Part shown: in pieces, positions 190-21,769 of the stretch
Layout: every line of letters begins with the position of its first letter
Numbering within the stretch: the first letter of the stretch is position 1
Virus record (IMG/VR): IMGVR_UViG_3300048591_001189
Span: 1-21,769 of that record
Origin: a virus
DNA length: 21,769 nucleotides
Reading direction: 5' to 3' (one strand)
Position numbers and translations under genes: made by a program
Notes under the pieces: model-generated
What the model saw: the letters and a program-made list of their open reading frames with translations, nothing else
The model's database searches: none
Told to the model about the DNA's origin: nothing

Positions 190-753
190 TTACCAGTCTC
201 GCAGGCGCCTGTCCCGGGCCTGCCGGCGGGGATTTGTGATGCGGGCGTAGATCAGGGTGTTCTGAATGTTCACGTGGCCCAGATGATCCTGCACATCCTC
301 CAGCGGCTCTCCCCGTTCCAGGAGGTGTGTTCCACAGGAGTGCTTCAACACGTGCATGTGCCGCCGCTCGGCAGGTATTCCCGCCGCCGCCCCATACTTC
401 TTGATCAGCACATCGAGCATCTGCCTGCTGATCCCATTTCCCTCCCTGGACAGGAAGAGCGGGCCCGGCGCGGTACCGCGGACGCGGAGCCACGCGCGCA
501 GCGCTCGCACCTCGTTCTTCGTCAGGTGAAACTCGCCCGAAGACGAGCCCTTCCGCCGGCGCACATACAGGCGATCGCTCTGCTGCCGGTAGTCCGAAAC
601 ATCCAGGAGTCCGATCTCGCTCGCCCGCAGTCCTCGGTGGTACGCCAAACGAAACATCGCAGTGTCCCTCGGGTCCCGGATCGCGCTGAAGAGACGGCGG
701 ATTTCCTCCTCCGACAGGTATTTCACCTCATTCGAGGCTCGATTCTTGGGCAT
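190..753 (-). CDS. int: Short tyrosine recombinase (FimB/FimE-sized phage integrase)
   Basis: This 187-residue protein is the catalytic domain of a tyrosine recombinase, which would insert and excise the prophage at the adjacent tRNA-Cys site. The catalytic residues are visible: R43 in GLRASE, K68 in the beta-hairpin, H134, H160 in LGH, and the nucleophile Y169 in TLIYA. The expected box-II HxxR is HVLK here (H134, K137), so a lysine replaces the second arginine. There is no N-terminal SAM-like core-binding domain or arm-binding domain; most phage integrases have 300-400 residues, and this length matches the FimB/FimE invertases. It is the last gene of the minus-strand array, 127 bases after the fibre gene. 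No Shine-Dalgarno sequence precedes the ATG, and two hairpins abut it (754-803). Assignment as the integrase of this element rests on family and position. Confidence 0.88.
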   Translation of the reverse strand: MPKNRASNEVKYLSEEEIRRLFSAIRDPRDTAMFRLAYHRGLRASEIGLLDVSDYRQQSDRLYVRRRKGSSSGEFHLTKNEVRALRAWLRVRGTAPGPLFLSREGNGISRQMLDVLIKKYGAAAGIPAERRHMHVLKHSCGTHLLERGEPLEDVQDHLGHVNIQNTLIYARITNPRRQARDRRLRDW

Positions 754-880: not shown

Positions 881-2143
881 CTACGGACTGATCCGGTAGT
901 ACGCCAGCAGGGCATCCCCCTCCGTCGGGGCGCATGTCACACAGAACAGGATGTCCGTTCCATCCAGGCTGAAGTCCACATTGCGGCGGAGGAGGATGCC
1001 GTTTCGGAACAGTCGCAGCGAATAGGGAGTGACCGGCGGGCTCGGCAGAGTGAAAGCTCTGTTCACACCATCCACGACCCCGGCAGGCACGACCTCCTCG
1101 ACCCAATCCCCGGACGAGCCGCTGGCGGCGCCGCCGGAGGAGTTCACTACCCACCTTCCGGATTGCGCCACTGCAAACTCGACCTCCACGTTGTTCGCAT
1201 CCACAACTCGCACTCGATGCCCCTCGACTCGGTTCCCGGCCGTGTCGAAGATCTCGATCAGAACCGCGGTCGTATTCCTGTTGTGTTGAATGCTCAGGAT
1301 CGTCAAATCGGTGAACTCGCCGGAGTCATTTGGAATCGGCGGCCCGGCCGGACCCTGAGGACCCTCCGGACCAATCGGACCTTGCGGACCAGTTGGACCC
1401 GGTGCTCCATCCGCGCCGGCAGGGCCGGCTGGACCCTGCGGACCCTCCGGACCAATCAGACCTTGCGGACCAGTTGGACCCGGTGCTCCATCCGCGCCGG
1501 CAGGGCCGGGCGGGCCAGTCGGTCCTGTTGGACCTGTGGAACCTTGAACTCCTTGGGGTCCGGGCGGTCCGGTTGGGCCAGCAGGGCCGGCCGGACCTTC
1601 TGGGCCGGGCGGACCCTCTACCGTCTCCGGATCATCCCAGGCCGGCTTCCCATCCAGAACCCGAAGCACCTGGCCCACGGCGCCGATCGGCAACCGGGAC
1701 CAATGGAAGCCGCCGCGGTATAGCAAGTCCCCAGTCGCTGTGCCGACAGTGGTGATCTGGTGAAGCCCGAGAGTCCCTGCCGGAGTGGGCAGGGTGGCTC
1801 TCAGCACCTGGTGAATTTTCAGAGGTGTAGCGGAAACCGGCACGTACCAACTTTCGATCCATCCCGATCCGCGCCGCGGCGTGTACCGCGCCTGGTAGTG
1901 CGTCCCCTCCGGTTGACTGCCCTCATTGGGCTCCAGATCGAGCTGGAGGACCCCATCCGTCACCACAATGTCCTGCTGCCATCGCTTGAGAGTGACCCCG
2001 CCCGCGGTGGTCATGTCTGGGGCGTACACGGTGATGGTCCCGGAAAAAGGCTGGTCGCCGATCCCTGTGCGAACCGGCCCTTCGATTCGCGTCGCGGCCC
2101 CCAGGATAGAGGCCGCCATCCACAACAAAAGAAGCCTCTTCAC
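881..2143 (-). CDS. Collagen-like tail fibre/adhesin with an N-terminal signal peptide
   Basis: This 420-residue protein starts with a basic, hydrophobic stretch (residues 1-18, [15 protein letters not shown]) that looks like a Sec signal peptide. A globular N-terminal region follows, containing a segment near 135-170 like those in phage fibres. Residues 177-269 are 31 uninterrupted Gly-X-Y triplets, rich in GPP, GPQ, GPA and GAD. This is a collagen-like triple-helix rod that implies a trimer. The C-terminal 70 residues (about 350-420) form a compact domain of the kind seen at the ends of phage tail proteins, possibly for trimerisation or receptor contact. The start is GTG (2143-2141), overlapping the previous stop by four bases (GTGA) with GGGAGG upstream. 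Collagen-like rods are known in phage fibres; the signal peptide is unusual for a virion part. A host-surface protein expressed from the prophage is an alternative. Confidence 0.78.
1359..1510 (-). repeat. 81-bp tandem duplication within the collagen-like region
   Basis: A unit beginning at 1359 is repeated from 1440 with a period of 81 bp, that is 27 residues or nine Gly-X-Y triplets. Across the shared part (about 71 bp) I see a single base difference, which changes one Pro to Leu (GPIGP versus GLIGP). Near-identity at the DNA level, including third codon positions, indicates recent duplication rather than protein-level constraint. Length change by slippage or recombination is a known property of collagen-like genes. 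Confidence 0.85.
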
Positions 2144-6827: not shown

Positions 6828-9800
6828 TTACACTCCTCGCTGCCGCAAGCGCCGCGCCAGTTCATCCAGGAATGCGTCGAGATCGCGGAATCCGATGAAG
6901 CTGGCCCCAGCCATGTTGATCGTGGTGCCTCCCCCGCCACTAATCCCCGCCCCGACCACTTCCAGAGGAGAGTCCGTAGTAAAGACCCTGACGCCGAGAT
7001 TCCTGATCTCCATCAGGCGTTCGTGGATGCCCTGCAGCGCGGGCAGGTACCGGTTCATCTGTTCGTTCAGGCCCGTCGAGTTGCCCACCAGTCCAATGAT
7101 CCCGCGCGTCGTCTCTCCCAGCAGCTTGTTCGTCTTCGCCGTCTGGAAGTTCCCGAAGATGCTGGAGACCATGGTCCCCAGACTGCCAATTGCCCCCAGA
7201 GTCCCCATCAGGCCGGAAGTCGCGGTCCCGAGGGCCGCGTTCAGGCCCCCGGTTGAGTTGACCGCCGTATTGGCAGCGGCGGGCGCAGCGCTCTTGGAAC
7301 CACTCAGAATCTTCCCCAGTGAGCCAAGGCCCGGAAGCTGCGACCCCAACTTAGCCAGACCTGTTCCCATGGACTTGAACAAGCGCTCCAGACCGAGTTG
7401 GGTAAGCCCTTTCGCGAACTCGGTCAGGATCTTCTTCATCCGGTCGCTGAACTTGCCGCCTTCCCACAACAGGTCACCGATCGACTTGGAAACCTGCTGA
7501 AACACTTGCTCCATCCGCCGCCCGACCTCGCTCCACACGGATTCCACCACCTTCCCTGTGTCCTGTGTGCTCTTCTTCAACTTGGCGAGCTGCTCTTCCT
7601 CCGACTTGGAAAGGACCTCGCCAGCCCGCTTTCGTGCCTCCAGAACCTTGATCTGGGCGTCATTGCGCTCGTTGGCGGATCCTTGTTTCAGCACTACCTC
7701 CAGATCCTTCTTCATCTGCTCGAGGTTCGGCCCCTTCTGCACCCCAAGCCGCGAAAGCGCCTCCGCCAGCTCCTTCGCATCGCGAATCTGCTGCCCGAAC
7801 TGGATCTCACCGGCGTTCTCCGCCGCCCGCTGCAAGCTTTGGCTCAGGCTCTCCACGTACTGCTCCACAGACAGCGCCTGGCGGCCGAAGTCCTCCAGGT
7901 TCGGAGGCTCGATCAGCCGCCGCTTTCCCGCATGCACCTCGTCAAGCCCCTGAACCCAGGCGGACACGAACTCCTCGCTCGCTTTCCGGTCCGCCGCCCG
8001 CTGATTCAGGTCTTCGATCGCCTGGCGGAGACTCACCACCGGGCCCAGCGTCCGCTCGGCCGCCTGATAAACCAGCCGCTGCGCCTGCGCCAGATCCTCC
8101 GCCGAGGCCCGCCCGCGCTTGTACGCCTCCTCGATCACCCGGAGGTTCTCCACCGCCCGCTTCTGTCCCGCCTCCAACTCCCGCGCCGACTCGAACCCCA
8201 ACTCCTGATACGCCTGCTTCAGCCGGTCCACTGCGCCTGATGTCTGGCTCGCCTCCGCCTTCACCCCCTGAAGTGCCCGCTGCAGCGCCAACTGTGCCTT
8301 CTGCAAGTCCTCCGCGGTGGCCATGCCTTCCTGATAGGCCTTCTCGATGATGGTGAAGGCTTCCCGCGCCGCTTGGGCATCTGCCTGGACATTCGACGAC
8401 GACTTCACCCCGAGGGTCGTGAATGCCCCCTCCAGCTTGTTGTCAACCTTCGCATCTCCAAGCGTCTTCGCCAGTTGGATCAGCTTCGCGCGGTACTCAT
8501 CGATCGAGATGATCCCCTGCCGGTAGTCCCGGCGCAAATCGCCAATGTCCTGGCCATGCGCCCGCAGCCTGCCTTCCAAAATGCGCAGTGCGCCGATTTC
8601 GCTCTCTACAGCCCGCCTCTGGGCATCCCTCGCGGCATACAGCGCGGTCATGCCGGAAACCACCCTGTAGATCCCCGCCGCCGCACCCAGAGCCGCAATA
8701 CTGACCGCGGTCAGTCCCGCCGCAAGTGCACCAACGCCGGCCGTTGTTCCGGCGAGTGCTGCAGGGGTTAGCCCTGTGGCGATCGCTTGGGCTACGCCGA
8801 GCAGTTTGGCGCCGGCCGCCGCCGCACCCGCAACCAGAAGGGGCCAGGCCTTGATAAGATTCCCGATCTGCCCAGCCATGAAGCCGAGTCCAACCGATGC
8901 GGGTCCGATCACGGCCAGCAATCCCGCAATGCCCACCGTCGCGCCCTTCGCGTAATCAGGCAGTTCCTTGAACTGCTGGGCCAGATCACCCGCAAACCGG
9001 GCGGCTGGAATCAGGCCATCTCGGGTGAGTCGCTCCAGGCCTGATACCAGCACTTCCCCCACCGGTGCCGCGGCCGCAGTGGCCTCGTTCTTCAACTGCC
9101 TCAGCCTGTCCGTCAGCGTGAGCGCATCCTCGGCAGACCGGTTGATCGTTTCGCTGCTCGATCCAACGACATCAAGCAGCTCGGCGAACTCGAAGCGGCC
9201 CTCGCGGATCGCGGCTGCCATGTCGGGGCCAGCCTCTGCCCCAAAGTACTTCATCGCGATTGCCGTCGCTTCTCCCGCCGAGCCGACTGACCGAATCTTT
9301 TCCATCAGGTCCAGCAGTGCGGACTTCGTGTCTGTGACGCCTTCGCGCGAGAAGTTCGTCAGGGCCTGGCGCATGCTGCCCAGCACCAGTTCGGTGTTTA
9401 CGCCTTCCTTCTCGAACTTGCCCATCATCACGGCCGCTTCGCTGAACGAGAAGCCCATTTGGCGGAGCGGTGCGCCGAACTGCACCAGGCGCCCCGCCAA
9501 CTGGTTCACCCCAATGCCGGTCGTCTGGCTCACCTTGAACAGGTAGTCCATGGTGTCCCCGGTCTTTTCAGCGGACACGCCCCAGTCCCCCATCACTCGC
9601 GACGTGGACTGGATCAGGGGTTGCACCTGCTCTCCCGTGATCCGGGCAAGGTTCAGCACCTGAATGGATAGCTGGCGCAGCGGATCACCCGTCAGGCCCA
9701 GCCTGGTATTGAGGTCGGCAATCGCAGTAGCCGCCTCCGCCGCCGAATTGGGCACGCTGCGAAAGACCGCGGTGAAATCCTTTTGAAGTCCATCCAGCGC

Positions 9801-15204: not shown

Positions 15205-16427
15205 TCTTCGGCCCCCTCTTCTGCCGCCTTGCCTTCTTCCACGGAGATCATCTGGGCCTGAATCCGGTGAACATCGCCGCCGGGAATCGGGTTCATGTTC
15301 TCCTTTTCCCGGCACTCGTTGATCGAATAGAGGCCATCCCGAAGCCCGATATTGTAGGACTGAATCCGCGAGAGAGAATCGCCTCGCAGCAGGACGTCGG
15401 TCAGAAATTCGGCGTAAAACTCCCCAGAAAGCAGCTTGCGGGTGATCTCCTGCTCCCAGTTCGTCATCCACGGCAGCATCGTGAACTGCACGAACTCAAT
15501 GGCCTGCTGCTCGATATTCGCCTTCGTCGCTTTATCCAGATCCCCAATCATGTGCGGTGGAATGCGATAAATCGACGCGACTTCCGAGCGCTGGTACTTC
15601 CGGGTTTCCAGGAATTGTGCATCATCAGGCGGGAAGCTGGTGCTCACCCACTTGGAGCCATCGTCAATAACCAGAGTCCGGTGCGCGTTCTGCACGCTTT
15701 CGTGCTTCGCATTGAAGTCCGCCTCAAACCTCGCCCGGTCTTTCAGCCGGCCTGGCACCTGGAGGATGCCGCCCACCCGGGCCCCGTTCGAGAACAGCTT
15801 CGCGCCGAATTGCGAGGCCGCAATCCCAGTCCCGATCGACTCGCGCGCCAGGCGGATAGGACTGTACCCCACCAACTCATCGCCAAGAGTCCGGATATGC
15901 AGGACTTCGTCTGGCGCCCAGGGGCCGCTCCAGCGATCGCCGCTCCGCCGGTACCGGTAAACCACTTTCCCCGCCACCCGTTCAACCGTCATGAACTCTG
16001 GCCGGAGTGGCCAGATCGCCCTCGGCCGGCCGCCCACGGTCCAGTCGATCAGGCTGTACGCATTCCCCCATCTGGCGGCGTTGTTCATCATGATTTCCCG
16101 CCAGGTGTAACTGCTCATCTCGGGGTTCGGCTCCATTCGCAGAAGCCGGTAGGCGTAGTGCCCGTGCGCCTTTTCCCGGCCCCGGTCCAGCCTCTGGTAC
16201 ACATGCAGGGGCAGACACGCGAGCGTTTCCGCCAGCACTTTGACACAGGCCAGGACCGCCGAATAGTTGAGCGCCGTCGTCTCGCTTACCCCTACGCCGG
16301 CGGATGTCCGTCCACCCCCTGTCAGGGCGTCCCAGGGCCAGCTATCGGGCGTGGCCGTCGCGAGGCTCTGTTCGGCGCGCTCAGCCGGTCCTCCCAGCCA
16401 CCGCAAGATTGAATGCCACACGCTCAC
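15201..16427 (-). CDS. HK97-family portal protein
   Basis: This 408-residue protein forms the dodecameric portal through which DNA is packaged. Family features run in order: an early ALNYSAVLACVKVLAETLACLPLHVYQ, then TWREIMMNNAARWGNAYSLI, PDEVLHIRTL with SPIRLARESIG, a stretch near 260-290 with TSFPPDDAQFLETRKYQRSEVASIYRIPPHMIGD, and a C-terminal REKENMNPIPGGD. The length is typical of HK97 portals. The start is GTG (16427), overlapping the terminase stop by four bases. The Glu-rich C-terminus overlaps the protease start. Confidence 0.94.
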   Translation of the reverse strand: MSVWHSILRWLGGPAERAEQSLATATPDSWPWDALTGGGRTSAGVGVSETTALNYSAVLACVKVLAETLACLPLHVYQRLDRGREKAHGHYAYRLLRMEPNPEMSSYTWREIMMNNAARWGNAYSLIDWTVGGRPRAIWPLRPEFMTVERVAGKVVYRYRRSGDRWSGPWAPDEVLHIRTLGDELVGYSPIRLARESIGTGIAASQFGAKLFSNGARVGGILQVPGRLKDRARFEADFNAKHESVQNAHRTLVIDDGSKWVSTSFPPDDAQFLETRKYQRSEVASIYRIPPHMIGDLDKATKANIEQQAIEFVQFTMLPWMTNWEQEITRKLLSGEFYAEFLTDVLLRGDSLSRIQSYNIGLRDGLYSINECREKENMNPIPGGDVHRIQAQMISVEEGKAAEEGAEE

Positions 16428-17971
16428 AGCAGCACCACCGTCGGATCCGAGTAGCCATCCCCGCCATGCACGATCATCCGGGCCAGAGCATTCACCAGGG
16501 CCACTATGCCGTCCACTTTCTTCCTCGAGTTCTTCCGGTCTGGCTTGACGGGCATGATGAGCCCCGATCCGTTTTCCCGGACTCCCACACTGTCTGCCAT
16601 CAGGTTCAGAACCGGGTGGTTTCCATGGCGCATGGTGTGATCGGTGAAACGGCGCTCCAGCTCGCGCGCCGCGGGATTCATCCCCTGCGGCGTCTGCCGG
16701 ATCGGAACCATCGTCACGCCCTCGGTGTTCAGCTCCGTCGCGGTCTGGTTGGCGTTCCAGGGGTCATAGCCCACCTCAACTAGGTCGAACTCGTCCGAGT
16801 ACTCCAGGATCCGCCGCTTCACCACTGTGTAGTCCACCGTGTTCCCCTTCGTCGCCTCGATCAGCCCGTCCCGCACCCAGCGGTCATACGGATAGCCGTC
16901 CTTCTTCGTCCGCTCTTGCACAGCCCGCTCGGGCATCCAGAAGTGCATCAGCACGTCGATATACCCGTCTCCGTGCGGAAACACCATCGCCAGTGCAGTC
17001 AGGTCGATCGACGTCGATAGATCGAGGCCTCCGAAGCACCGAGCCCCCCTCAGCGCCGAACGGTCCACTTTCCCGCCGCACTGCAGCCAGTCCTCCATCG
17101 GAATCCAGCGCGTCTCCTGCTGCACCCACCGGTTCAGCCGAAAGCGTAGGAACTTGTTCAGTTCGCCCGGGTTCTGTTTTGCCCGGAGCGCCGCCTCCCG
17201 CACCTTGTCCTCGCTGAGGAAGTCTCCCATCGCCGGGTTCGCTTTCGCCCAGACCTTGGGGTCCTCCCAGTCGTCCCCGTCCTCCGCCGCGTAGATGATC
17301 GGCAAGTACGCCGGGTTCTCGAAGACGCCCCGCTTCAACTGGCTTGCGTACTCGTGCTGATCCCAGCACAGAGGGCTCTCGTCCATCACACCGGCCGTCG
17401 TTGTCGCCACCGTCAAAGGCTGCTGCCGCGTGTCGCCCCCGAGCGTCAGAATGTCCCATAAGTCGCTGTTCTTCTGCCGGTGCAGTTCGTCGAAGATCAC
17501 CCCAGAGGGGTTGATCCCATCCTGCGTTCCAGCATCCGCCGAGATCGCCCGGTAGAAGCTGTCTGTGGGCCCGAAGACGATCGTCTTTGTCGAGTTCACC
17601 ACCTCACACCGCCGCTTCAACTGGGGGCAAAGCTGCACCATCCGTCTGGCCGCACGGTACACGATGCCTGCCTGTTCCCGGCAGTTGGCGGCGCCGTACA
17701 CTTCGGCGCCTACTTCACCATCAGCCGTCAGCAGGTACAGGGCGATCCCCGCCGCCAGTTCCGTCTTCCCGTTCTTCTTCGGGATCTCGATGTAGCACGT
17801 GCTGTACTGCCGGGTCCCATCGTCCTTCACCCTCCCGAACAGCTCCCGGATGATTTCCGCCTGCCAGGGAGGCAACAGAAATGGCGCCCCCGCGTATCGG
17901 CCTATGCCGTGCTTCAGGTACCTCTCGAAGAAGGCGACGGCCCGGTCGGCTTTCTGCTCATCGAATGGCAC
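16424..17971 (-). CDS. terL: Terminase large subunit (ATPase and nuclease)
   Basis: This 515-residue protein is the packaging motor and headful/cos nuclease. The Walker A motif is the variant IPKKNGKTEL (63-72), the Walker B is GVIFDE (157-162; D161, E162), and coupling motif III is TVATTTAG (187-194). The C-terminal nuclease (from about 310) has metal-binding Asp residues at D317 (GGLDLS), D403 (VGYDPWNAN) and D487 (KKVDGIVALVNA). The group resembles the HK97/lambdoid TerL-1 type rather than T4. The start is GTG (17971), sharing one base with the TerS stop (TAGTG). It follows TerS and HNH, the arrangement found in many cos phages. Confidence 0.95.
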   Translation of the reverse strand: MPFDEQKADRAVAFFERYLKHGIGRYAGAPFLLPPWQAEIIRELFGRVKDDGTRQYSTCYIEIPKKNGKTELAAGIALYLLTADGEVGAEVYGAANCREQAGIVYRAARRMVQLCPQLKRRCEVVNSTKTIVFGPTDSFYRAISADAGTQDGINPSGVIFDELHRQKNSDLWDILTLGGDTRQQPLTVATTTAGVMDESPLCWDQHEYASQLKRGVFENPAYLPIIYAAEDGDDWEDPKVWAKANPAMGDFLSEDKVREAALRAKQNPGELNKFLRFRLNRWVQQETRWIPMEDWLQCGGKVDRSALRGARCFGGLDLSTSIDLTALAMVFPHGDGYIDVLMHFWMPERAVQERTKKDGYPYDRWVRDGLIEATKGNTVDYTVVKRRILEYSDEFDLVEVGYDPWNANQTATELNTEGVTMVPIRQTPQGMNPAARELERRFTDHTMRHGNHPVLNLMADSVGVRENGSGLIMPVKPDRKNSRKKVDGIVALVNALARMIVHGGDGYSDPTVVLL

Positions 17972-18414
17972 TACCCGAACATCCCGTCAGGATCATCCGC
18001 CGGCTCCGACTTCGGCACGCTGATCCTGCCCCGCGGCGCCGGGGCAAGGCCAAAGAAGTCCACCCACCGCTGCAACGCTGCTCGGTACTGCCTCGCGATC
18101 TGAAGCGCCGGGTTCTTCACTAGACCACGCTGGCCCTCGATCAGGACCCCGCGCTTCCCAATGTCCTCTTCGCACTGCTTCAGCCTGAGCGTGCACAGGC
18201 AGTAATCCGCCAGCGCCGCCTGGTCCAATTCCGACAGGTCGCCTCGCTGCTTGAGCAGCTTGGCCACACGGGCCCACTCGGCCCGAGCATCTTCCGGCAA
18301 TGATGCGGGTGCTTCGGGCACCCCAGGAAGAAGCGGCGCGGTCTCACCGCTCCGCTTCCCCGGATTCCCCGCCAACTCCTTCGCCTTCACCGCCTTCGCC
18401 CGTCCCGCCATCAC
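17971..18414 (-). CDS. terS: Terminase small subunit (P27 family)
   Basis: This 147-residue protein recognises the packaging site and regulates TerL. It matches the P27 family: a basic N-terminus (AGRAKAVKAKELAGNPGKR), Pro-rich linker, then LPEDARAEWARVAKLLKQRG, LDQAALADYCLCTLRLKQCEEDI, and LVKNPALQIARQYRAALQRWVDFFGL near the C-terminus. The GTG at 18414 and the ATG at 18411 are adjacent in frame, with GGGGG just upstream; either could start, giving 147 or 146 residues. The gap before it (18415-18472) is a candidate packaging site. Confidence 0.92.
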   Translation of the reverse strand: MMAGRAKAVKAKELAGNPGKRSGETAPLLPGVPEAPASLPEDARAEWARVAKLLKQRGDLSELDQAALADYCLCTLRLKQCEEDIGKRGVLIEGQRGLVKNPALQIARQYRAALQRWVDFFGLAPAPRGRISVPKSEPADDPDGMFG

Positions 18415-18472: not shown

Positions 18473-18874
18473 CTAGGCGGCCAGCTTCGAGGTCCGACCC
18501 ACCCCCCTTGGGTCAGCACACGCGCGCCCGAAGCCGCCATCCTCCACGGCCGTCTTCCGGTCATGGCACCGCTTGCATAGCGCCTGCCAGTTTGACCGGG
18601 CCCAAAACAGATGCGGGTCTCCTCGGTGTGGGGAGACGTGATCAACCACCTCAGAGACCCGCAGTCCGCCATGCGTCTTGCATCGAACGCACAGCGGATT
18701 CTCGCGCAAAAAAGCCTTACTCACCCTCTGCCACTGCGCCCCATACCCGCGCGCCGCCGATCCGGCCCGCGGCGCCTGCATCACCCGCGCAGGCCGGTGC
18801 AGCGCACAGTACCCACGCTCCACCAGGGCTGCGCACCCCGGCCATCGGCACGGCCTCAGCGGCGCCTCGGGCAT
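18473..18874 (-). CDS. HNH endonuclease of the DNA-packaging machine
   Basis: This 133-residue protein has an N-terminal Cys/His cluster (C9, C14, C23, H26) that may bind zinc. A basic helix follows (QWQRVSKAFLREN), then a complete HNH fold: C62-x2-C65, VVDH (D78, H79), N95 and C100-x2-C103-H104. H79, N95 and H104 are the expected catalytic/metal residues. HNH proteins next to TerS and TerL are known to be needed for terminase cleavage in many cos phages such as HK97. The start chosen is ATG 18874, which shares one base with the stop of the preceding gene (TGATG). The frame is open upstream to 18928, but that would overlap the previous gene. Confidence 0.9.
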   Translation of the reverse strand: MPEAPLRPCRWPGCAALVERGYCALHRPARVMQAPRAGSAARGYGAQWQRVSKAFLRENPLCVRCKTHGGLRVSEVVDHVSPHRGDPHLFWARSNWQALCKRCHDRKTAVEDGGFGRACADPRGVGRTSKLAA

Positions 18875-19080
18875 CAGACTCGCTCCTCCGCGGGCGGCCA
18901 CCGCCTCAGTCTCGCATTCGCCTGGCACAGCGCCTTCGTCTGATACTTCTCCTCCACCTGGCCCAGAATGCTCTTCTCCATCTTCAGCAGCTCATTCTTG
19001 ACCCACAGCACCAGGTATCCCAACCCCAACTGCGCCAGCAGGTTCAGCAGCCCCAGCACCACCCCCATATCCACGGTCAT
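18874..19080 (-). CDS. Small single-span membrane protein (holin-like candidate)
   Basis: This 68-residue protein has one hydrophobic helix (about 5-28, MGVVLGLLNLLAQLGLGYLVLWV), then a charged, probably coiled-coil helix (about 29-60) and a short basic tail. The start ATG overlaps the zinc/HTH gene stop by four bases (ATGA), and its stop overlaps the HNH start. The reading frame is open far upstream (to 19569), but that extension is out-of-frame shadow of the zinc/HTH gene. Small membrane proteins of this kind in phages include holins, pinholins, exclusion proteins and unassigned morons. No endolysin lies beside it, so a holin role is not supported beyond size and topology. Confidence 0.65.
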   Translation of the reverse strand: MTVDMGVVLGLLNLLAQLGLGYLVLWVKNELLKMEKSILGQVEEKYQTKALCQANARLRRWPPAEERV

Positions 19081-19730
19081 TCGAAATACCCATCCAAGGG
19101 CCACAGGGCCACCGGCTTCATCTCGACAAAGGTTCGCCCCAACCGCCGCGCCACCACATCCGCCGCATGGTACGCCCGGTGGGCTGAGCCCAGTCCCAAC
19201 CGCCGCGCCACTTCGGCCAGCTCCAGCCGCCACACGAAGCGTAGCCGGAACACTTTCCACTCCTGTTCCGGCAGCACCCTTTTCGCGGTCAGATCCACGT
19301 CCGCCAGAAACTCTTCCACGGGCCGCCCATAGCTCCTGGCCCCGTGCGCCCCCGCTCCGACGATCCCAATCTTGGTCGTCGACGCATCCCCGCTGCGGAA
19401 GCTCAGTCCGTGGTACCGGTGCATCACTGCCCGGAATGCCGTCCGCTCCGCGCAGGCGCACGCCCGGAGCCTGTATCCACCGCGTGCCTTGTTCAACCCC
19501 ACCATGCCGTACCCCGTGCACACAGGGCATTTCGGATCCGCCAGACTCAGCGCCGCACCTCTCGGCCACCCGGGTGGATGGACGTCATCTTTCCACTGGG
19601 CCAGCACGAACTTCGCCATCTCCTGCCGTTTCCGGATCTTCGGAACGGGAATCGCCCTCGACAGTCCCGGGCTGGCCTCACTCATCCCGAAATTCCTCGG
19701 AACCATCACCACCTGTGCTGCTGTTGCCAT
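19077..19730 (-). CDS. Zinc-finger and sigma-region-4-like HTH protein (late regulator candidate)
   Basis: This 217-residue protein has a CPVC (C68, C71) and CAC (C91, C93) set separated by a Gly-rich hairpin (CTGYGMVGLN), resembling a DnaJ-type or rubredoxin-like zinc knuckle. The C-terminal part (about 153-201) reads LPEQEWKVFRLRFVWRLELAEVARRLGL, then a second helix, AYHAADVVARRLG. This is the layout of sigma-70 region 4 or RinA/ArpU-type phage late regulators. The N-terminal ~45 residues are basic. It sits directly between the region-4 protein and the packaging genes, where late activators are often encoded. It has no clear Shine-Dalgarno sequence and starts five bases after the previous stop, so re-initiation is likely. 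The exact family is not certain. Confidence 0.68.
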   Translation of the reverse strand: MATAAQVVMVPRNFGMSEASPGLSRAIPVPKIRKRQEMAKFVLAQWKDDVHPPGWPRGAALSLADPKCPVCTGYGMVGLNKARGGYRLRACACAERTAFRAVMHRYHGLSFRSGDASTTKIGIVGAGAHGARSYGRPVEEFLADVDLTAKRVLPEQEWKVFRLRFVWRLELAEVARRLGLGSAHRAYHAADVVARRLGRTFVEMKPVALWPLDGYFE

Positions 19731-19735
19731 GGGAA

Positions 19736-20023
19736 TCAGAGAACATCGGTCAGACGGCTCACGCCGCGCGCGGCCAATAGGCCGCGCAAACGAGCCAAAG
19801 CCCGGCAGTGCATCGCATGCACCGCCGGTACCGAGACCTCGCAGATCTCCGCGATCCGCACCAGACTGTGCCCGTCGCCGTATCGCAGGATCAGCACTCT
19901 GCGCTGCCCCAGCGTCAGTTGGGCCATGGCGGACAACAGCAGCCTCTCTCGCTCGGCCGCAGCCGCCATCTCCGAGGGGCAGTACTCAGGACCCGCCTGC
20001 AGTGTCGGAATCTCGACCCGCAT
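19736..20023 (-). CDS. Stand-alone sigma-70 region 4-like protein
   Basis: This 95-residue protein is essentially a sigma region 4: SAMAQLTLGQRRVLILRYGDG, then HSLVRIAEICEVSVPAVHAM (the HTH, about 53-72), then CRALARLRGLL. There is no region 2, so it cannot melt a -10 element by itself. It might bind -35 elements with the core enzyme, act as an appropriator or adaptor, or work with the region-2-bearing factor encoded 740 bases upstream. The ATG is preceded by AGGAAGAGG. It overlaps the end of the small membrane-protein gene by 38 bases. Phage late activators with this architecture are known. Confidence 0.78.
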   Translation of the reverse strand: MRVEIPTLQAGPEYCPSEMAAAAERERLLLSAMAQLTLGQRRVLILRYGDGHSLVRIAEICEVSVPAVHAMHCRALARLRGLLAARGVSRLTDVL

Positions 20024-20228
20024 CCTCTTCCTGTCCGTCCGCCGCCTTGATCAACCCCGCCGCCGCCAGCCCCTGGATCGTCAGGTCCACCGTCCGCTCA
20101 TGCAGCGCGGTCTTGGGGTTGGACGCCACCTGGACGCCCACCAGCCCCAGAATGGCCCATCCCGCCAGGCTCGTTCGCCAGCCCTTCTTCTTACGCCGCT
20201 TTCCGCCCACGTCCGCCACGCTCAGCAT
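19986..20228 (-). CDS. Small membrane protein of unknown function
   Basis: This 80-residue protein has a strongly basic N-terminus (KRRKKKGWR at 10-18), one transmembrane helix (about 19-37, TSLAGWAILGLVGVQVAS), an amphipathic stretch (49-62) and an acidic, Gly/Ser-rich C-terminus. The charge pattern predicts the N-terminus inside. The start at 20228 is chosen because upstream frame sequence (to 20366) is a shadow of the orphan gene. The gene overlaps that gene by 38 bases at its start and the region-4 gene by 38 bases at its end. A holin-like or regulatory membrane role is conceivable but not shown. Confidence 0.55.
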   Translation of the reverse strand: MLSVADVGGKRRKKKGWRTSLAGWAILGLVGVQVASNPKTALHERTVDLTIQGLAAAGLIKAADGQEEDAGRDSDTAGGS

Positions 20229-20721
20229 TAGGCCACTCCTGAATCTCCGTGAAAGTCCACACGCCCTTCGGATTGTGTTCCGTCTCCCGGTTATGACTGG
20301 CGGACCGGCCATGCCATCGGCGTCTGGCCGGCGGACCCTCCGCCAGGCCCGCCGGCCGCCGTGCATGACTTAGAACGCGCACTGTCCGTACGCGCTTCCG
20401 GGTCCCCAGCAGCTCCACTTGCCCCGCTTTCAGCCACCCGCGGACATCGGCTTCCGTCGCCCAGCCGAGCGCTTCCCCTTCTTCGTCGATCAGGGAAATG
20501 CGATCGGCCATCGGCCGTGGGTCGGTCTCTGGCTGCACGGGTAGACTGTCGTTCGGTGACCGGAAGTCGAAGAGTTTTAGGCCGCTCTCCTCGCGGCCAT
20601 GCGCCATTCCGGAAGGCGCTTTTCCGGAAATTCGGGAGCTCTCCCCGGAAAAGGTATCTGTCTGATTGTACGGCTGGGCCGGGAATTCTTTAACGGGGGG
20701 AGGGCCGTTTCTTTTCGCCAT
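20191..20721 (-). CDS. Orphan protein in the sigma-like gene block
   Basis: I do not recognise this 176-residue protein. The N-terminal third is polar and probably disordered (Pro/Ser/Asn-rich). Residues about 71-110 (ADRISLIDEEGEALGW, then EADVRGWLKAGQVELLG) look folded, alpha/beta with a helix. After that it is Arg/Gly-rich, ending with a folded-looking GVWTFTEIQEW and a basic tail (RGGRGRKAA). It starts 43 bases after the sigma gene with AGAGGG before the ATG, and is most likely co-transcribed with it. The basic tail suggests nucleic-acid or partner binding. The codon-level pattern is consistent with a real gene, but no function can be assigned. An anti-sigma or sigma-partner role is only a positional guess. 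Confidence 0.6.
   Translation of the reverse strand: MAKRNGPPPVKEFPAQPYNQTDTFSGESSRISGKAPSGMAHGREESGLKLFDFRSPNDSLPVQPETDPRPMADRISLIDEEGEALGWATEADVRGWLKAGQVELLGTRKRVRTVRVLSHARRPAGLAEGPPARRRWHGRSASHNRETEHNPKGVWTFTEIQEWPNAERGGRGRKAA
20607..20653. repeat. Cluster of TTCCGGAA palindromes and a 9-bp inverted repeat
   Basis: TTCCGGAA occurs at 20607-20614 and again at 20622-20629, 15 bases apart. CTTTTCCGG (20619-20627) is the inverse of CCGGAAAAG (20645-20653) with a 17-base spacer. All lie within the orphan gene, where they encode a repeated Ser-Gly. They may be an intragenic operator or RNA hairpin, or coincidence. Confidence 0.35.
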
Positions 20722-20763
20722 GCCCTCTCAGTCGCCAGAATCCACCCTTCGGATCGGTTCGGA

Positions 20764-21273
20764 TCACCGAAAGAGCTTCTTGAGCCGGCCGATGCCTTGG
20801 GCTTTCAACTCACTCGCCCGCGGTCCTGAGATTGCCAGTTCCGCCGCCGCCAGCTTGAGCGAATCGCCATCCAGGATCCCGCCGATCACGCGCGCCTCCT
20901 GGGTGGGCAGCGTCCGCAGTGCGGCACGAACCCGCGTTACCCGCTCCGCCCGCTCCGCCAGCTCGTCCGCCGCCGCCCGGCCGTCCCGAATTTCGACTGG
21001 CACTTCCGCATGCTGCGCGTGGATCCAGTTCCGCCTCCGGATCGAGTCCAGCATCGCGCCACGCACCCGCGCCCTGGCAAAGAGCCGGAATGGAGCCCGC
21101 CCCCGTTCGAAACTCCCGGCCGCCTGCACCAGACCCACCATCCCCGCCTGCACCAGGTCCGCCAACTCGATCGACGCCGGCGCTCGCCGCGCCACCATCC
21201 GCGCGATCGGCTCCACCAGATCCAGATTCGCCTCCACCAAACGGTTCCGCCGCGCCAGCGAGTGCCCTGCCAT
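20764..21273 (-). CDS. Phage-encoded small sigma-70-type RNA polymerase sigma factor
   Basis: This 169-residue protein is a compact sigma factor. Region 2 is clear: LVEANLDLVEPIARMVARR, then ELADLVQAGMVGLVQAAGSFE (about 37-56) and FRLFARARVRGAMLDSIRR (62-80), as in FliA/SigF-type factors. Region 4 (about 112-169) contains ALRTLPTQEARVIGGIL and an HTH, LKLAAAELAISGPRASELKAQG. Region 3 is shortened or absent, which makes it smaller than FliA (about 240 residues). It would direct host RNA polymerase to phage promoters. It is preceded by a ~240-base leader with a promoter and two inverted repeats. The ATG is at 21273 with GAGGGG immediately before it, close spacing for a ribosome-binding site. 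Confidence 0.87.
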   Translation of the reverse strand: MAGHSLARRNRLVEANLDLVEPIARMVARRAPASIELADLVQAGMVGLVQAAGSFERGRAPFRLFARARVRGAMLDSIRRRNWIHAQHAEVPVEIRDGRAAADELAERAERVTRVRAALRTLPTQEARVIGGILDGDSLKLAAAELAISGPRASELKAQGIGRLKKLFR

Positions 21274-21430: not shown

Positions 21431-21460
21431 AGTGTACCACCCATGCCGAACCCTTGCCAA
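21431..21460 (-). promoter_or_regulatory. Predicted sigma-70-type promoter for the sigma-led operon
   Basis: On the minus strand TTGGCA (21460-21455) and TACACT (21436-21431) are separated by 18 bases, and TG precedes the -10 by one base (TGG TACACT), an extended -10. It lies in the gap between the membrane-protein stop (21509) and the sigma start (21273), giving a leader of about 150 bases that contains both inverted repeats. The match is good for host-type housekeeping promoters, but it is unproven. Confidence 0.5.
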
Positions 21461-21508: not shown

Positions 21509-21769
21509 TTACCCCTCCCGCGCGACCGCCCGCAAAATCGCTGACAGGATCCGCAAGACCCGCACTGTCGCCAACCCAGTCGCCGCCACGACGAACACCC
21601 AGATATGGAAAATCCAGCGGAAGTGGGGGGACGCCGTGTCCGCCATCGCCGCCACCGCCGAAAGGCAGGCCGTGATCAGGCACAGCCACACCGCTTGGAT
21701 CAGGAAATGCACGAAGCGGAGGTAGTAGCCCGCCTCCTTGCTTCGCTGTATCACCCATTTCTCGTCCAT
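21509..21769 (-). CDS. Small two-span membrane protein at the window edge
   Basis: This 86-residue protein begins at an ATG formed by the last three bases of the window, so an upstream extension cannot be excluded. It has two hydrophobic segments: about 15-41 (FVHFLIQAVWLCLITACLSAVAA) and about 52-77 (WIFHIWVFVVAATGLATVRVL), with a short polar loop and a basic C-terminus. Two spans, small size and a charged tail resemble class II holins, but there is no endolysin in the window to support that. It lies upstream of, and separated by a promoter from, the sigma gene, so it belongs to a different transcription unit. Confidence 0.6.
   Translation of the reverse strand: MDEKWVIQRSKEAGYYLRFVHFLIQAVWLCLITACLSAVAAMADTASPHFRWIFHIWVFVVAATGLATVRVLRILSAILRAVAREG

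Follow-up and report, generated by a model that had tools for sequence, protein, structure and literature searches.

A conserved set of sigma-like genes, a promoter-like site and a covarying RNA leader ahead of the late operon in tailed phages, with a possible role in late-gene control

What would a phage do with three proteins related to bacterial sigma factors, encoded one close to the other ahead of its packaging genes? A preliminary description placed three such proteins between positions 19077 and 21273 of a virus contig of 21,769 bases (IMG/VR record IMGVR_UViG_3300048591_001189), the whole of which we analyzed and denote here the window. Domain searches and structure prediction confirmed all three. 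Every gene of the stretch examined is on the minus strand, and the order as transcribed is: a small protein of the two-transmembrane (2TM) type, a compact sigma factor, an orphan protein, an 80-amino-acid (aa) open reading frame (ORF), a stand-alone sigma region-4 protein (R4-only), a zinc-motif protein with a region-4 fold (Zn protein), a small membrane-type protein, an HNH endonuclease, and the small (TerS) and large (TerL) terminase subunits. Downstream of this module, packaging and structural genes occupy ~20 kb on a single strand. The proposal that the three region-4-type proteins form a regulatory set was borne out, their order being kept beside the packaging genes of other phages, and the set comes with a promoter-like site and a structured RNA element in front of the orphan gene. 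The module may be a conserved control unit of the late operon of tailed phages, operating as outlined below, a reading that we treat as a serious possibility rather than a likelihood.

It had been suggested that the same gene set be sought in other prophages, and other viruses do possess it: in four further virus contigs, the orphan, R4-only and Zn genes lie directly before the terminase genes. A sigma gene is found upstream in three of the five phages with this gene trio, and a sixth phage encodes a divergent sigma elsewhere. Contig L002 (34.9 kb) has the genes for the 2TM protein, sigma, orphan, R4-only, Zn protein, small protein, HNH, TerS and TerL in the same order as the window, with 79% identity to it in the terminase and ~38-44% in the regulators. 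L042 (50.6 kb) encodes sigma, one extra protein, the orphan, R4-only, Zn protein, a small protein, a resolvase, TerS and a different TerL. L032 and L033 share the orphan, R4-only, Zn protein, small protein, HNH, TerS and TerL (L032 stops just upstream), and L007, the phage with the divergent sigma, which lies downstream, has an orphan-like protein, R4-only, Zn protein, small protein, TerS and TerL. Given that it precedes two different kinds of TerL, the module moves as a unit. Our searches of an open-access library found no description of this combination. Both ends of the L042 contig (L042/L046/L047) meet inside the sigma gene; the contig therefore is probably circular and a full genome that includes the entire module, which makes it the best choice of reference.

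At the same place in six phages, upstream of the orphan gene, there is a conserved promoter-like site (TTAAAG-N17-TACAAT at 20665..20693, minus strand, in the window), with the consensus T[T/G]AA-N2, 17 bases, and [T/G]ANNNT. The six versions are TTAAAG/TACAAT (window), TGAAGT/TATCCT, TTAAGT/TACACT, TGAAGG/TACAGT, TGAAGG/TATAGT and TTAACA/GACAAT. A strict version of this consensus has five matches in 133 kb, all at this position, compared with 0.85 expected from shuffled sequences and at most three in any shuffle. Because this pattern was drawn up from the sites themselves, a leave-one-out test was added to limit the bias: when the position weight matrix was built without the locus under test and its near twin, the true sites ranked 2 (tied), 5, 1, 1, 1 and 7. 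In L014 (573-965) and L042 (~210-615), a protein that by eye resembles host-nuclease inhibitors (Gam) is encoded directly upstream of the site.

Some tens of bases downstream of this site, five phages share an element of ~60 nucleotides (nt) that we interpret as a structured RNA leader (20560..20619, minus strand, in the window). Hairpin 1 (20619-20615/20605-20601) consists of 5 base pairs (bp) and, in four phages, carries the loop UUCCGGRAU. Hairpin 2 (20598-20593/20585-20580, loop GAGGAGA) begins two bases further on and has 5-6 bp and a purine-rich loop with AGGAG or AGAAG. After an A-rich linker, the sequence UYCCGG is complementary to CCGGRA of loop 1, forming a pseudoknot (20612-20607/20565-20560), in which the window has A-U where the others have G-C, and L042 and L043 retain the pairing around one bulged base. 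The covariance model recovers its five copies and a sixth, outside the model, at the orphan gene of L043 (E 2.8e-4). Across the six copies, 86.3% of the cells are paired, compared with 33-57% when the partners are slid, and four pairs are changed on both sides; some of the unpaired cells reflect gap placement in the window and L042, and alignment by hand pairs the arms throughout. This covariation comes from a small number of independent lineages, about four or five. When the viral collection was searched with the RNA pattern alone, it yielded L002, one chance match (L034, with no module gene and a poor covariance-model score) and two contigs not previously identified, each with the gene set. 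The leader matched none of the 4227 families of Rfam 15 up to E 5.

In minimum-energy folding, the leader does not surpass its shuffles; the case for an RNA rests on covariation and independent recovery. That folding result, the palindromic character of TTCCGGAA and the hairpins, and the frame upstream of the orphan, which is open in the window and L002, would all suit an element conserved as a DNA operator or as coding sequence instead. We consider this explanation very unlikely, given that double changes preserve pairing in both hairpins and in the pseudoknot. The element lies in a different reading frame in L037/L033 than in the window/L002, and in L042 a stop codon interrupts it; hence, the conservation is not that of a coding sequence. 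As to the partner of the structured RNA, L043 (5073-6560) has the element and the orphan followed by a sigma of the extracytoplasmic function (ECF)-like type, with neither R4-only nor Zn protein, so that the RNA accompanies the orphan and not the region-4 proteins. The leader is similar to the put RNA of phage HK022, an antitermination RNA of ~70 nt that follows a phage promoter and consists of two neighboring stem-loops. It differs in that put acts without a phage protein and its description includes no pseudoknot (PMC9378689), and the two sequences are unrelated as far as Rfam shows.

The orphan (20191..20511, minus strand) is a stand-alone protein of ~100 aa and the most widespread component of the module. 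Its start, previously set at 20721, was corrected to 20511, the extension of the ORF to 20721 not being conserved in frame. The N-terminal 46 residues are modeled as a beta-beta-alpha-beta-beta domain (pLDDT ~80) resembling the PLMP domain and IF3-N, and IscB/IsrB chains occupy ranks 1, 3, 4, 5 and 7 among its PDB matches with a best probability of 0.99 (7utn_D: 47 columns, root mean square deviation 2.0 A, probability 0.99, E 0.07). An hhalign comparison with the N-terminus of IscB, the sequence of which was checked against the PDB, is in register with P 0.0014 but a probability of 18, and alignment A19 of the orphan family contains no P-L-M-P motif. Seven homologs share an invariant tail, H-x-R-E-T-x-x-N-P-x-x-V-W-T; the orphan-like proteins of L007 and L015 are tail-less, and the RNA element likewise was not detected there. 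In IsrB, the PLMP domain touches the tandem hairpins of omega RNA (PMC9581776), and in IscB it touches the terminal ones (PMC9640706); here, too, tandem hairpins of a structured RNA immediately precede the gene for a PLMP-like domain. Unlike IscB and IsrB, the orphan stands alone, without a RuvC/HNH nuclease or the PLMP motif, and has a conserved tail of its own, and the RNA is merely ~60 nt long. From the model and this analogy, the orphan is probably an RNA-binding protein, with the leader as its likely ligand, a strong lead rather than proof. We found no support for the earlier idea that it is an anti-sigma or anchoring partner: it has a PLMP/IF3-N-like fold and an invariant tail, and its gene lies behind a conserved structured RNA. 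Members of the orphan family with the invariant tail are also encoded in L039, L040 and L041, where sigma-like genes are absent; in L039, the one read, the gene immediately precedes those of the terminase.

The compact sigma (20764..21273, minus strand; 169 aa) has homologs in L002, L042 (L046/L047) and L007. Its region 2 (Pfam Sigma70_r2, 7.9e-13) is of the FliA/WhiG (sigma-28) type, with the R-x-R-G-A-M-L-D motif; this family provides the top profile (TIGR02479, 2.8e-20) and the top PDB relative (FliA, 2.5e-15), and FliA is the nearest solved structure in profile comparison (E 1.5e-26). It differs from this family in being phage-encoded and so short, and its score is far below the family cut-off (73 vs 189.6 bits). 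Only ~30 aa separate regions 2 and 4, compared with ~91 aa in Pseudomonas aeruginosa FliA, so that domain 3 is missing. Region 4 is weak in the window (0.061; 13.3 bits, below the cut-off of 24.1) and clear in the L002 homolog (4.7e-8). One search of genome contigs yielded distant region-2 matches only; L008, the match that was examined closely, proved to be a WhiG locus from Pseudonocardia. Upstream of the sigma gene there is a candidate sigma-70-type promoter (TTGGCA-N18-TACACT, with TG before the -10; 21431..21460, minus strand), identified by consensus match only.

R4-only (19736..20023, minus strand; 95 aa) contains a region-4 helix-turn-helix (HTH) that matches Pfam Sigma70_r4_2 above the cut-off (7.4e-12), in agreement with its initial assignment to this fold. 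Its best-scoring profiles are of the ECF type, not FliA/WhiG, and it is similar to the C-terminal part of the compact sigma over 79 columns (probability 96). This similarity, the contrast between the degenerate region 4 of the window sigma and the strong one of R4-only, and the co-occurrence of the two proteins in the window, L002, L042 and L007 would be compatible with a split sigma, in which region 2 would come from the compact factor and the working -35-binding domain from R4-only. Such a separate region-4 protein beside a region-2 protein would follow the logic of SigO-RsoA of Bacillus subtilis, a true two-subunit sigma (PMC10028694). We regard this arrangement as unlikely here: the compact sigma retains its own region 4, sound in L002; the ECF-type profiles do not mark R4-only as the missing half of a FliA/WhiG-like factor; L033 encodes R4-only with no region-2 partner in its 9.6 kb; and a third region-4 protein, the one with the zinc motif, is present, occurring in L015 without sigma or R4-only.

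The Zn protein (19077..19730, minus strand) combines a CxxCxGxG..CxC module with a C-terminal sigma-region-4 fold (residues 137-204). The motif C-x-x-C-x-G-x-G...C-x-C and the C-terminal half are common to six homologs, in which C68, C71, C91 and C93 are invariant, and these cysteines suggest that the protein binds zinc. The match to Pfam Sigma70_r4 (3.6e-5) is slightly below the cut-off. Structure prediction supports the region-4-like HTH noted previously: in the AlphaFold2 model, four helices at 137-204 (pLDDT 82-94) superpose on sigma domain 4 (3vep, 1.4 A over 57 columns, TMt 0.74; Foldseek E 0.42), as they do on 3hug, 5fgm and 2h27. A scan with the single protein found no relatives, which were recovered only by alignment-based searches. 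The top full-length viral match is an uncharacterized phage protein (E 6e-7); thus, the family is present elsewhere but unnamed. No protein encoded by the INPHARED phages matched the Zn protein or the orphan, and none of 398 genomes from the phylum of G004 contained a Zn homolog in a scan that was run without a positive control and proves little. A match in L018 (E 0.02) is due to chance and sits in an aminotransferase-like region.

Located immediately before the late genes, the position of lambdoid Q, the Zn protein could be a Q-type antiterminator, with sigma and R4-only as independent regulators of other phage genes. Lambda Q indeed has a CxxCxGxG motif and a region-4-like HTH (PMC7171158), and the Zn protein is the sole one of the three sigma-like proteins in L015. 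The Zn homologs scanned showed no match at E<=1 to the Q antiterminator families of Pfam (PF03589, PF06530 and PF06323), however, and hhalign comparison with the lambda Q profile aligned 11 columns with a probability of 2, so that membership in a Q family is not detectable. We rate this alternative as doubtful.

Each protein of the module is of a known kind, namely, a sigma-28-like factor, a region-4 protein and a protein in a Q-like position. Under the late-operon control reading that we favor, the phage sigma most likely directs the polymerase to the promoter-like site behind its own gene, and the transcript would start with the pseudoknotted leader and continue through the orphan, R4-only and Zn genes into the packaging and structural genes. 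The orphan would most likely bind the leader RNA. R4-only and the Zn protein most likely bind the beta flap of RNA polymerase, the site of sigma region 4 and of Q proteins, and may supply -35 recognition at phage promoters, favoring late ones; alternatively, the Zn protein might keep the polymerase running through the ~20-kb operon in the manner of Q. The gene order makes a cascade plausible, from sigma to the promoter and on to R4-only and the Zn protein. Phage T4 offers a parallel in gp55-gp33, a small phage sigma with a separate flap-binding coactivator of late genes; R4-only and the Zn protein differ in being region-4 folds, to which gp33 is structurally unrelated (PMC7892883). A stronger version, in which the leader and the stand-alone PLMP protein, together with the sigma and two flap-binding region-4 proteins, license or antiterminate the late operon as a new type of RNA-protein switch, appears rather improbable to us.

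Several observations weigh against the late-operon control reading. In L015, the Zn protein alone, accompanied by a protein that by eye is weakly similar to the orphan, precedes TerS and TerL, and L043 combines the RNA and the orphan with an ECF-like sigma but has neither R4-only nor the Zn protein. For the orphan, the Foldseek E-values exceed 0.05, and Pfam RRXRR was not matched. A search for the FliA-type promoter TAAAGTTT-N11-GCCGATAA was negative, TAAA-N14-17-CCGATAA was without match, and GCCGATAA-like sites are no more frequent than expected by chance. The -10 of the conserved site, TANNNT, is nearer to the housekeeping type than to that of FliA. Finally, the 9.6 kb of L033 include the site, the RNA and the trio of genes downstream of it but encode no region-2 protein, so that the site may be used by another sigma. 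The host housekeeping sigma might read the conserved site, the phage sigma serving other promoters and the region-4 proteins acting later; the [T/G]ANNNT box, set at a spacing of 17 bp in each of the six phages, would accord with this, as would L033. The -35, T[T/G]AA, is unlike the housekeeping TTGACA and is kept across divergent phages, and the phage sigma gene lies directly upstream in the window and L002, which makes recognition by the host sigma the less probable solution, with a modest chance of being correct.

In the packaging region, TerL is encoded at 16424..17971 (79% identity to L002), TerS at 17971..18414 and the HNH endonuclease at 18473..18928, all on the minus strand. L002 has an extra ORF, absent from the window, between HNH and TerS (7242-8489), and its TerS/TerL junction is partly repeated, with a second, short TerL match (9186-9300). 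Among the small proteins (all minus strand), the 2TM-type one upstream of sigma (21509..21769) is 42% identical to its L002 counterpart and open at the end of the record. The membrane-type protein after the Zn gene (18874..19080) corresponds by position only to small hydrophobic proteins in L002, L007 and L033; sequence comparison with that of L002 was negative. The 80-aa ORF (19986..20228), once proposed as a membrane-bound anchor or anti-sigma partner, is not convincingly membrane-spanning (peak mean hydropathy of 1.18 over 19 residues) and is specific to the window at its place, with no counterpart at the equivalent position in L002, L032, L033 or L042, which leaves that proposal without support. 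Visual inspection had hinted at homology to an L042 protein, which the comparison did not bear out. Elsewhere in the window, the tail-end protein of the late operon (881-2143, minus strand) contains collagen-like Gly-Pro-Pro repeats. The preliminary description spoke of a prophage, whereas the record is an IMG/VR virus contig; at its far end, a tyrosine-recombinase-like protein (190-753, minus strand), recognized by eye, points to a temperate phage.

Beyond a small number of model phages, little is known of how late genes are controlled. The module described here is compact and portable, with a testable promoter-like site and a new covarying structured RNA. The stand-alone PLMP-like protein may be informative about how the RNA-contacting domain of IscB/IsrB arose, and the two additional region-4 proteins make the number of flap ligands per late operon a directly testable matter.

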